Source: Halorubrum trapanicum | GTDB taxonomy: Archaea > Halobacteriota > Halobacteria > Halobacteriales > Haloferacaceae | Assembly (NCBI RefSeq): GCF_017873555.1 | Contig: NZ_JAGGKE010000007.1 | Location: 62,001-126,000, forward strand | Length of the DNA stretch: 64,000 nt | Direction of reading: 5' to 3' | In this document: in pieces, positions 11,800-58,143 of the stretch | How positions within the stretch are numbered: the stretch's first letter is position 1 | Layout of the letters: each line of letters starts with the position of its first letter | Notes under the pieces: model-generated | The model's input: only the letters and a program-made list of their open reading frames with translations | What the model was told of the DNA's origin: nothing | Database searches by the model: none | Position numbers and translations under genes: made by a program

Positions 11800-11836
11800 C
11801 TCCTGCGGCGAGCAACCCGCGAGTGACGACGACGAT

Positions 11837-11846
11837 TTTATAAATA
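11837..11846 (+). promoter_or_regulatory. TATA-like box before repeat copy 1
   Basis: TTTATAAATA lies in GC-rich DNA 10 bases before the conserved GCGGTGGCG start of the repeat element. Similar TTAYAAAY boxes precede the other copies at 4-10 bases, so this is either a promoter or a conserved boundary sequence. Confidence 0.5.
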
Positions 11847-11855
11847 GACCGCGGT

Positions 11856-12160
11856 GCGGTGGCGCGTGCCTCCGAGCGCCCAGCGGGCGCGAGGAGCACG
11901 CGCGAGGGAGTCGCGAACGCCCGCAGGGCGTGAGCGACGAGGCTGGGGAGGCGTGAGGCTGCGGTCGCTGTGCGGTGCGGGGTGGGACTCAAAGGGGCAG
12001 TCGCGAGGCGGGCGCAGGCGAAGCAAGCACCGAAGCGAGTGAGCGGAGCGAACGAGCGAGGCGCACAGCGAGCGTGCGCCCGCCTCGCGACTGGGGCTTT
12101 AGAGGTGTTCGAGGTCGGACGATCTCCGACCGAGTAGCGCCTCGCGACTGGGGCTTTGGA
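11856..12160 (+). ncRNA. Structured repeat element, copy 1 (candidate ncRNA family)
   Basis: The element holds three helices. P1 is GCGCGTGC (11862-11869) with GCACGCGC (11896-11903), enclosing an inner GCGCCC/GGGCGC stem. P2 is formed around ACGCCC/GGGCGT. P3 is a long 19-base stem (11998-12016 with 12075-12093). Between P2 and P3 lies the conserved core GAGGCTGGGGAGGCGTGAGG and GGGACTCAAAGGGG. A symmetric GGG/GGG internal loop sits below P3. The tail GCCTCGCGACTGGGGCTTT (12082-12100) is repeated at 12139-12157. Frames within it look spurious. Four other copies occur in this window. Confidence 0.7.
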
Positions 12161-12253
12161 AGTTTCCCGCCTATTCACAGTCAATCATTTATAAACAGGC
12201 GCCGGAGGTTTTGAGAATATCACCGTAACTCTGGTGACATCGGTCTGTCCAGA

Positions 12254-29581: not shown

Positions 29582-29868
29582 GCGGTGGCGCGTGCCTGCG
29601 AGCGGCCGCCCCCGGCGGCCGCGAGAAGCACGCGCGAGGGAGTCGGCCGGTCGGAGCGAAGCGGAGACCGGTCGACGAGGCTGGGGAGGTGAGAGGTGCG
29701 GTGCTGTGCGGTGCTGTGCGGTGCGGGGCGGGACTCAAAGGGGCAGCCGGGAGGCGGGCGCAGGCGACGCAAGGACCGCAGGGCGGGAGCGAGCGAAGCG
29801 AGCGACCGACCGAGGAGCGCAGCGAGCGTGCGCCCGCCTCCCGGCTGGGGCTTTGGCGGTGTTCGCCA
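29582..29868 (+). ncRNA. Structured repeat element, copy 2
   Basis: It has the same layout as copy 1, between the convergent helicase and purC genes. P1 GCGCGTGC/GCACGCGC is kept, but its inner stem is now CGGCCGCC/GGCGGCCG. P2 is built around CCGGTC/GACCGG. P3 strands are CAGCCGGGAGGCGGGCGCA and TGCGCCCGCCTCCCGGCTG, with paired changes relative to copy 1. The GTGCTGTGCGGTGC segment is tandemly duplicated. A TGACAAAC box precedes it and TTTTATAAC follows at 29889-29897. Confidence 0.7.
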
Positions 29869-29890
29869 CCCTATCCGCGGTCACCCTATT

Positions 29891-30931
29891 TTATAACTCG
29901 TCGACCGCGTCGAGCGCCGCCTCGACGTCCGGGACGTCGAACCACTCGCGGTCGGTGTAGGCGTTCGTCCCGGCCGCGTACAGGTCCGAGACCGCGTCGA
30001 CGACCGCCGGCGGCAGCGGGTCGGGCGACTCGTCGCAGAGCTCGCGCCAGTCGTCGATGTCGCGACCCGCGACCGACTCCTTCGCCGCCTTGACGGCCGC
30101 GACCCAGTCGGGGTCGTTCGCCTTGTACCACTGGCGGACGACCTCCTTCGAGATCCCGCGCCCGCCGTAGGAGAACCGGTTCTCGTCGAAGGTGCCGACC
30201 ACGTCGGCGACGCGGAGCTCGCCGTCGACGTAGAGGCACTCGATCTTGCCGTCCTCGTGGACGAACCCGGTCGCCTCGGCGCGCTCGGTGACGACGCGGT
30301 TCACCTCGCGCGCGAGCGATTCGAGGGCCTCAATGTGGGCGACGCCCGCGACCTCGTCGGCCTCCGCGCGGGCCAGGTAGCGGTCCTGCTGCTCGTACTT
30401 CGTCGAGAACTCCACGACGGGTTCGGGGAGGTCGACCGGCTCGTCGGGCCACTCGCCGTCGGCGCCGCCGAGGTCGTCGAGTCCGAAGTCGGCGGGGTCG
30501 GCGCGCCTCCGCAGGCTGGACCCGACCGGGACGCGGTTACGGAAGACGACCTCCAGCGGGACGAGGAAGTTCTCCCCGCCCGCGGCGTGGTAGGCGTCGT
30601 AGTCGTAGCCGGCGTGCGGGCCCTCGTACGGGAGGTCGGGCACCTGCGTCAGGTCGATGGCCATCTCCGTCGGCGGGGCCGCCGCCTCGTCGAGCGGGAC
30701 GATTTCGTTCGAATCCGCGACCCCCCGATAGTGCGTCGGAACCCCCTCGCGCTCCAGCAGTTCGAAGTTGAACGCGCCCATCGCACAGAGGCTCGCGCCC
30801 TTGTTCGGGATCGCGTCGGGCATCTGTCCCCAGTCGAACACGGAGTAGGCGTCCGTGAAGACGAACCGCCCCCGACCCAGTCCGTCGGCGGTCGCCGGCT
30901 CGTCGACGCGGAACTCCTTGACGCTCGTCAT
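29891..30931 (-). CDS. purC: SAICAR synthetase
   Basis: The 346-residue phosphoribosylaminoimidazole-succinocarboxamide synthase joins CAIR and aspartate using ATP in purine synthesis. Diagnostic stretches are GKGRxxF-like [53 protein letters not shown] and [21 protein letters not shown]. It carries the longer archaeal/eukaryote-like insertions. It ends within the 3' flank of repeat copy 2. Confidence 0.93.
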
Positions 30932-40319: not shown

Positions 40320-40328
40320 CTTATAAAC
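40320..40328 (+). promoter_or_regulatory. TATA-like box before repeat copy 3
   Basis: CTTATAAAC is six bases before the conserved GCGGTGGCG. A 21-base flank at the far side (40549-40569) ending ATTTATAAACAG matches the far flank of copy 1 (12178-12198) at 19 of 21 positions. Confidence 0.45.
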
Positions 40329-40334
40329 TGAACT

Positions 40335-40540
40335 GCGGTGGCGTCGCCGGCGGCAGAGCCGCCGGCTGCAAGAGGCGCGTCGCGCCTCCCTGCGCGCCTC
40401 CGAGTGGCCGCCGAAGGCGGCCGCGAGGAGCACGCGCGAGGGAGTCAGTCGCCGGAGCGAAGCGAAGGCGACTACGAGGCTGGGGAGGCGTGAGGTGCGG
40501 TTGCTGTGCGGGGCGGCTGGGGCTTTGGAGGCGTTCGCCG
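40335..40540 (+). ncRNA. Structured repeat element, copy 3 (P3 deleted)
   Basis: The 5' part is expanded by an extra GCCGGCGGC/GCCGCCGGC hairpin. P1 retains its inner GGCCGCC/GGCGGCC stem, and P2 is AGTCGCC/GGCGACT. The core GAGGCTGGGGAGGCGTGAGG is intact. Then GCGGGGCGG joins directly to CTGGGGCTTTGG, so the GGGACTCAAAG strand and the whole P3 hairpin are missing. It lies between the NAD-kinase-like and acetyltransferase genes. Confidence 0.65.
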
Positions 40541-40625
40541 CCGAGACGCAGTCAACGATTTATAAACAGTTCCCCTCGACAGCGCCGACAGACAGGCCTT
40601 TGTCGCTCGCAGCGCCGGGAGTCGT

Positions 40626-43263: not shown

Positions 43264-43314
43264 CGACGCGGCCGGATCCTTTTATTCGACGGCGCGACTA
43301 CCGACGAGCGGCCG

Positions 43315-43386
43315 ATGACGAACCACCGCTCCGAGCCGGACTCGGCACCCGGCGACGACGAGCCCTATGAGTACCGAGGCCGGTAA
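43315..43386 (+). CDS. Possible 23-residue peptide gene
   Basis: ATG 43315 opens a 23-residue acidic frame (MTNHRSEPDSAPGDDEPYEY then RGR-stop). A CTTTTATTC box at 43279-43287 sits 28 bases upstream, ideal for a leaderless promoter with no other gene to serve at that spacing. Too short to judge by composition; expression is not shown. Confidence 0.35.
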   Translation: MTNHRSEPDSAPGDDEPYEYRGR

Positions 43387-47092: not shown

Positions 47093-47400
47093 GCGGTGGC
47101 GCGTGCCGACGAGCGGCCGAAGGCCGCGAGTCGCACGCGCGAGGTCGTCGGGCGAAGCCCGACTGCCAGAGGGACCTTCGGCCCTCGCTGGACGCGGCGA
47201 ACGCGAGCGGCGCAGCCGCGAAGCGTGAGCCGCGAGGCTGGGGAGGCGTGAGGCGCGGTCGCTGTGGTGGGCGGGGGGACTCAAAGGGGCAGTCGCGAGG
47301 ACAGCACAGGCGACGTAAGCACCGCAGGAACGAGCGAAGCGAGTGACGAGGAGCGCAACGAGCGTGTGCTGTCCTCGCGACTGGGGCTTTGGAGGGACTC
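47093..47400 (+). ncRNA. Structured repeat element, copy 4
   Basis: It lies between the convergent binding-protein gene and ABC operon. P1 GCGCGTGC/GCACGCGC encloses GCGGCC/GGCCGC. P2 is enlarged with extra hairpins. The core GAGGCTGGGGAGGCGTGAGG and GGGACTCAAAGGGG is intact. P3 strands CAGTCGCGAGGACAGCACA and TGTGCTGTCCTCGCGACTG are perfectly paired although half of each differs from copy 1. A TTACAAAC box is four bases upstream. Confidence 0.7.
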
Positions 47401-57502: not shown

Positions 57503-57573
57503 GCACCGGTAGTGTAGTGGTATCACGCAACCTTGCCATGGTTGCAACCCGAGTTCAAATCTCGGCCGGTGCA
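57503..57573 (+). tRNA. tRNA-Gly (GCC)
   Basis: The 71-base cloverleaf has acceptor GCACCGG/CCGGTGC, anticodon stem CAACC/GGTTG with loop TTGCCAT (anticodon GCC), T arm CCGAG-TTCAAAT-CTCGG and discriminator A. No intron. Its last 23 bases are duplicated at 57680-57702. Confidence 0.95.
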
Positions 57574-57623
57574 TTTCTCCAACGTAGTGAGAGAAGTCTC
57601 CGAGAGAGGTTTGAACGCTATCA

Positions 57624-57672
57624 GTCGCGCGCAGCGAAGGGGCGGGCGAAGCGATCCCTGAGCGAGCACGTC
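57624..57672 (+). repeat. Spacer core shared with the tRNA-Leu locus
   Basis: GTCGCGCGCAGCGAA (57624-57638) and GCGAGCACGTC (57662-57672) are identical to adjacent blocks at 11745-11759 and 11760-11770 behind tRNA-Leu. Here a 23-base insertion separates the blocks. In both loci the core is followed within 7-10 bases by the duplicated tRNA 3' end. Confidence 0.75.
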
Positions 57673-57679
57673 TGGTTCT

Positions 57680-57702
57680 GAGTTCAGATCTCGGCCGGTG
57701 TA
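57680..57702 (+). repeat. Duplicate of the tRNA-Gly 3' end
   Basis: The final 23 bases of tRNA-Gly (57551-57573) recur here with two mismatches, in the same orientation, 129 bases downstream. This parallels the duplications behind tRNA-Leu and tRNA-Thr. Confidence 0.8.
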
Positions 57703-57731: not shown

Positions 57732-57979
57732 GAGCACCTCCAAAGCCCCAGCCGCGAGGGCTCGCGCACCTCGCTGCGCCCTTCAGTCGCTCACTCCGTT
57801 CGCTCCTTCCAGGGCTTGCGTCGGTGTGCTTCGCCCTCGCGGCTGCCCCTTTGAGTCCCGCCCCGCACAGCAACCACAGCCTCACGCCTCCCCAGCCTCG
57901 TCAGTCGCCGTCGCTTCGCTCCGGCGACCTCGCGCGTGCGACTCGCGCCCTCCGGGCGCTCGTCGGCACGCGCCACGGC
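57732..57979 (-). ncRNA. Structured repeat element, copy 5
   Basis: This is the only copy on the minus strand. It reads GCGCGTGCC... with P1 inner stem GCGCCC/GGGCGC, P2 GTCGCC/GGCGAC, intact core GAGGCTGGGGAGGCGTGAGG and GGGACTCAAAGGGG, and P3 starting CAGCCGCGAGGGC paired to GCCCTCGCGGCTG. The GGG/GGG internal loop and GGGCTTTGG tail are present. A TATTTATAAAT box on the minus strand (57987-57997) precedes it. Confidence 0.7.
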
Positions 57980-58143
57980 CTCGTTGATTTATAAATAGCA
58001 CACACTGGCCCTCGTCGCTGTTTAAGTACCGTATCGCGTCCACGTTCGTCTCGTGACGTGACCGAGGACGAGCGTCGCACGGGCGGAGCCGACGGCGACG
58101 GACCCCGTCCGTTTAACAGCGCGTGCGTCCTCTGTTCGCGTAT

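Follow-up and report, generated by a model that had tools for sequence, protein, structure and literature searches.

A high-copy repeat family of haloarchaea with covarying hairpins that probably represents mobile DNA rather than a conventional structured RNA

In integron attC sites, structure is conserved rather than stem sequence, one strand folds, and the unpaired bases are conserved. The double-hairpin elements of fungal mitochondria are mobile and rich in GC, and their stems keep pairing although they differ, and HEARO and other RNAs of the omega-RNA type are structured, covarying and present in many dispersed copies. The PATEs (palindrome-associated transposable elements) of Haloquadratum are transposase-free, high-copy elements with palindromes and heterogeneous copies; no long terminal inverted repeats are seen in them, and they share near-terminal palindromes with IS605 elements (PMC3119063). 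REP, BIME and REPIN sequences, known together with RAYT transposases, are intergenic palindromes of 20-40 bp, present at about 100 copies and in both orientations (PMC2817692, PMC3116915, PMC3733652).

The window, that is the whole stretch of 64,000 nucleotides of Halorubrum trapanicum DNA analyzed here, carries five copies of an element of ~300 bp that was compared with each of these systems. The family shares with PATEs every trait listed above except the last, as no IS605-type partner was found among the four IS200 loci compared; it further differs in being class-wide, in having a fixed bracket motif and in carrying internal rather than just terminal hairpins. The copy number, intergenic location, palindromes and double orientation recall REP elements, but the family is far longer, its stems are variable, its copy number is not correlated with Y1/RAYT genes and no GTAG tag was found in the alignment or the loci. 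As in attC sites, structure prevails over stem sequence, one strand folds and unpaired bases are conserved; in contrast, the P3 consensus contains no R boxes (GTTRRRY/RYYYAAC, by inspection) and there is no tie to gene cassettes. The fungal mitochondrial elements likewise have stems that vary but pair; organism, size and motifs differ and, to our knowledge, the two are not homologous. The family differs from HEARO and omega-RNA type RNAs by the lack of a nuclease ORF and of an Rfam match and by stems poor in G-U pairs. HF2-type 58-bp viral promoter repeats were also considered; their length is near that of the tail unit described below and their sequence is different.

All five copies proposed in a first-pass annotation of the window were recovered at the same places and on the same strands. 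Allowing up to 3 mismatches, the conserved block GAGGCTGGGGAGGCGTGAGG was matched 5 times, compared to an expectation of 0.01; for GGGACTCAAAGGGG, with at most 2 mismatches allowed, there were 4 matches and an expectation of 0.3. As had been claimed, GGGACTCAAAGGGG is missing from copy 3, where the whole P3 hairpin is lost, and the P3 arms quoted for the other copies were exact. The elements are however longer than first delimited and extend from a TATA-like box 5' of the P1 hairpin through at least one tail unit of ~57 bp. The features are as follows.

11836..12197, + strand: copy 1, whole, with TATA-like box, P1, P2, core, P3, two tail-type CTGGGGCTTT segments and 3' TATA-like box (ends set by comparison with other copies)
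11836-11845 (5') and ~12188-12197 (3'), + strand: TATA-like boxes of copy 1 (comparison with other copies)
11939..11958, + strand: conserved block GAGGCTGGGGAGGCGTGAGG of copy 1 (motif search)
11984..12100, + strand: P3 of copy 1 with its bracket GGGACTCAAAGGGG ... CTGGGGCTTT (motif match, covariation)
29584..29896, + strand: copy 2 with tail and 3' TATA-like box, without 5' TATA-like box; between convergent genes
29730..29856, + strand: P3 of copy 2 with its bracket
40320..40567, + strand: copy 3, with TATA-like box, mini-hairpin insert, P1, P2, conserved block and tail with TATA-like box; P3 and GGGACTC bracket lost
47095..47400, + strand: copy 4, between convergent genes; presence/absence polymorphic within the genus
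47276..47392, + strand: P3 of copy 4 with its bracket
57732..57989, - strand: copy 5, with its 5' TATA-like box at 57981-57989; of six species compared, five have an element at this site
57742..57859, - strand: P3 of copy 5 with its bracket

The anatomy of the element was derived from 91 copies of this genome and more than 120 others. A TTTATAAA box is followed after 4-14 nt by GGTGGCGCG... and the P1 hairpin, then by the P2 hairpin, GAGGCTGGGGAGGCGTGAGG, a short TGCGGT-rich link, GGGACTCAAAGGGG, P3 and CTGGGGCTTTGG. P3 is a long hairpin set inside the conserved bracket GGGACT(C/G)AAAGGGG...GGGGCTTT(G/C), and 3' of it lie one to five tail units, each with another TTTATAA box. In a test for MITE-type terminal inverted repeats, only the self-palindromic TTTATAA was common to both ends (by inspection). 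Of 112 copies, 68 had a TATA-like box no more than 32 nt from the 5' end, as did 33 of 52 copies located in convergent gaps, compared to 75 of 2383 background windows; such boxes occur at both element ends and were absent from the empty sites that were read. The box therefore belongs to the element, since it is present in convergent gaps, has a background of 3% and is missing from empty sites. A role of the tandem boxes as promoters of genes was rejected on account of the same background and of their presence in convergent gaps. Two further arrangements were observed. Arrays of mini-hairpins (GTCGGGCGAAGCCCGAC, GAGGGACCTTCGGTCCCTC, GAGAATCTTCGATTCTC and others) are inserted in element loops or free-standing (window 40350-40400; L040 and L046 intergenic regions). 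The L045 intergenic region carries five near-identical tail units in tandem, each with its TTTATAA box, which suggests recent tandem growth.

This Halorubrum genome, of 3.08 Mb, contains about 100 copies of the family. The exact core GGGACTCAAAGGGGCAG was counted 91 times, 46 and 45 times on the two strands, with none for the reversed control, and the GAGGCTGGGGAGG block has 119 exact copies. The exact core was present in 43 of 46 sampled Halorubrum genomes (0-143 copies each) and in none of 345 other genomes of the class; among the matches listed, the named ones were from Halorubrum, except for one uncultured archaeon MAG. Relaxing one base (GGGACTNAAAGGGGC) extended the range to 46 of 74 genera, with matches in 151 of the 242 genomes of the class examined; Halobaculum, Halorussus and Haloarcula plasmids are among the sources, and the matches bracket perfect stems and end in GGGGCTTTC. 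Only 2 of 204 genomes of the same phylum outside the class had the relaxed core, with a single match each, and the family is therefore class-restricted. Several contigs of the present assembly (G000) start (C3, C5, C9, C10, C20) or end (C6, C10) in or beside an element; the repeats thus break assemblies and copy counts are lower bounds. Carriage by viruses was rejected, as the element was not found in the viral contigs and phages searched. On Haloarcula plasmids (L188:1260-1620, L286:2190-2340), the same bracket occurs in a non-coding region that is conserved and is preceded by a module GGATGGGTGAAAGCCCGG..., also found in the small plasmid pNB101 at ~79%; this region may represent a structured RNA or replication element of its own, so far undescribed.

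Besides the genome search, which revealed this large family, the first-pass annotation had proposed a search of Rfam. The Rfam 15 covariance models gave no match on the window elements or on seven related loci, and no counterpart was found in the literature searched; within that scope, the structured covarying family that the annotation had been unable to assign apparently is previously unreported. Elsewhere in the window, positions 43310-43381 correspond to the sR-tMet box C/D guide RNA (Rfam RF02163).

The copies are dispersed between genes. As described for the window, where all were said to be intergenic, none of 154 copies lay inside a gene; convergent gaps held 62 copies, codirectional gaps 49 and divergent gaps 20, compared to a baseline of 111, 316 and 168, with genes called by our own script trained on acidic long ORFs rather than by curated annotation. 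In codirectional gaps, 24 copies were on the same strand as the genes and 25 on the opposite strand. A role as riboswitch, terminator or 5' UTR was rejected, the strand being random relative to neighbours and convergent gaps being preferred. In the window itself some copies do lie in convergent gaps, as proposed, but their number is three of five rather than two if the tRNA preceding copy 1 is counted. In some complete genomes the copies seemed to follow one another all on the plus strand, but this was a listing artefact.

The sites are also polymorphic. Among 30 loci orthologous to the copy-4 site, the element was present in ~11 and clearly absent in at least 6 (56-102 bp between the genes); it was inverted in one (L048) and replaced by mini-hairpin arrays in two. 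The copy-3 site was empty in one genome (G006), and at the copy-3 and copy-5 sites most species carry an element whose core is kept and whose hairpins differ, indicating hairpin swapping at orthologous sites. Flanks of filled and empty sites were too diverged to define junctions or a target-site duplication. Presence or absence at orthologous sites, dispersal and both orientations are features of a mobile interspersed repeat. The best full-length pair of copies in this genome is 92% alike, with no recent identical copies, and movement is therefore not very recent in this genome; otherwise diverged copies share identical segments of 50-62 bp. Several partial copies of a tRNA 3' end (CACCGGCCGAGATTTGAACT) lie beside the tRNA gene downstream of copy 5 (window ~57570-57700) and at L271, L273 and L269 of related species; they are possibly scars of integration.

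We then considered the fold. Covariation, claimed from the five copies, holds in a larger set: in 46 distinct P3 copies, 16 of 19 pairs of the main stem changed on both sides and the score was 0.303, compared to 0.094 +/- 0.009 after shuffling (0 of 500 as high) and 0.03-0.08 with slid partners. The outer stem CAAAG/CTTTG covaries as well (Fisher P = 9e-12), being CGAAG/CTTCG in 7 copies and GAAAG/CTTTC in 66 of 66 copies of other genera. In the P3 interior, dinucleotides set between tandem G-A mismatches were complementary in 98 of 123 copies, compared to a mean of 27 and a maximum of 45 after shuffling. The fold has a polarity: on the + strand every conserved mismatch opposes two purines, and of 150 copies P3 was more stable on that strand in 143 when computed with RNA parameters and in 140 with DNA parameters. 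The + strand is therefore the folded strand.

Of the alternatives to a DNA repeat, the one that survives best is a multi-copy structured non-coding RNA family, in which a TATA box of each copy would drive its transcription and selection on the RNA would keep the fold. The box present even in convergent gaps, the stable fold of the + strand, the covarying dinucleotide ladder with its G-A mismatches and the class-wide bracket all speak for it, as does stem position 4 of P3, where T-G is tolerated (30, compared to 3 C-A). However, pairing in the stems is almost wholly Watson-Crick, with hardly any G-U pairs. Their share was 3/1237 (0.24%) in P2, scored by a pairing routine that counts G-U as a mismatch and is thus slightly biased against it, and 29/~3460 (0.8%) in P3 outside position 4, compared to 25/384 (6.5%) in a small control of 17 tRNAs from the same DNA (P = 5e-12 and 2e-13); as ARAGORN by design pairs G-U and not A-C, only the G-U share is comparable. 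Outside position 4, G-U exceeded A-C just slightly, and in copies of other genera the two were on a par, at 13 G-U and 10 A-C. Position 4 alone thus behaves like RNA, and the stems do not show the G-U intermediates of RNA-like helix evolution. The tips tell the same way against an RNA: the P2 tip on the + strand is GCGAAGC in 68 copies and its complement in none, and CCGAAG was found 31 times and CTTCGG once, so that the stable RNA loop UUCG is avoided. GCGAAGC forms a DNA mini-hairpin with a Tm of ~78 C (PMC4686876). In addition, TATA begins at -26 in Halorubrum virus promoters (PMC8707807), and under that TATA-to-start rule transcription would begin within the P1 arm. Of 216 copies, 10 (5%) have an inverted P3 interior, and about 100 copies per genome with presence/absence variation fit such a family poorly. 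We consider this reading unlikely.

The stems also bear marks of DNA-level events. In three copies (L017, L019, L345), the GGGG/GGGG loop was corrected to GGGG/CCCC, by a change of the 3' GGGG to CCCC in two and of the 5' GGGG in one, and each change lengthens the palindrome. Template switching and hairpin exchange in DNA would fit both this correction and the inverted P3 interiors. Combined, the scarcity of G-U, the GCGAAGC tips, the palindrome correction and the inverted interiors point to maintenance at the DNA level, as do the hairpin swapping at orthologous sites and the identical 50-62-bp segments in otherwise diverged copies, and the earlier reading of covariation as the signature of selection on RNA structure is accordingly weakened.

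The hairpins might instead belong to a structural or regulatory DNA element that recombination has spread and that persists for its usefulness where it stands; a site between convergent genes that binds protein, forms a G-quadruplex or acts as an insulator would be an example. The preference for convergent gaps, the core kept at orthologous sites and the G runs conserved on one strand would fit; indeed cores are conserved at these sites while flanks diverge, which could reflect a function in place. Half of the copies lie in other gap types, the strand is random and species with 0-5 copies exist, and we regard this explanation as rather improbable. Derivation from IS200/IS605, with the family as a kind of PATE or REP element that a Y1 (HUH) transposase moves, is very improbable: single-strand hairpin logic and the abundance of PATEs in another haloarchaeon (PMC3119063) favour it, but Y1 (IS200/IS605) counts were not correlated with copy number (rho 0.11, P = 0.47), genomes without Y1 genes hold up to 75 copies, the four IS200 loci of this genome lack element motifs and the REP GTAG tag was not seen at the hairpin feet (by inspection), so that Y1 was rejected as mobiliser.

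The family is thus more likely to be mobile DNA than a structured RNA of the conventional kind, and we favour, with some confidence, a non-autonomous high-copy interspersed DNA repeat of haloarchaea whose hairpins act and are maintained as DNA. In a single-stranded state, during replication or transposition, the G-rich strand would fold. An enzyme supplied in trans may then recognize the bracketed hairpin by its shape and conserved unpaired purines, not by stem sequence, and would insert copies into intergenic DNA. Between moves, the palindromes would be kept perfect by template switching and by copies trading hairpin modules with one another, with the outcome that stems change yet stay paired. 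The genes flanking the copies in the window are ordinary, and no mobiliser was found among them. A coding partner element was also sought and rejected: the 20 loci with the GAGGCTGGGGAGG block and no exact P3 core listed beside it were mostly P3 variants or P3-less copies, and no second half was seen across a gene. More tentatively, a putative enzyme might mobilize the whole class-wide family by reading the shape of the single-stranded hairpin (purine internal loops, GGG/GGG bracket, GCGAAGC tips) instead of its sequence, leaving stems free as long as they pair; this would be an attC-like logic in dispersed chromosomal repeats.

The family offers a clear case in which strong covariation alone does not show RNA function, and the G-U test, which separates the RNA and DNA readings, can be reused elsewhere. 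As most haloarchaeal genera carry the family and a single genome can have up to ~140 copies, it matters for how genomes of this model archaeal class evolve, are assembled and regulate their genes.
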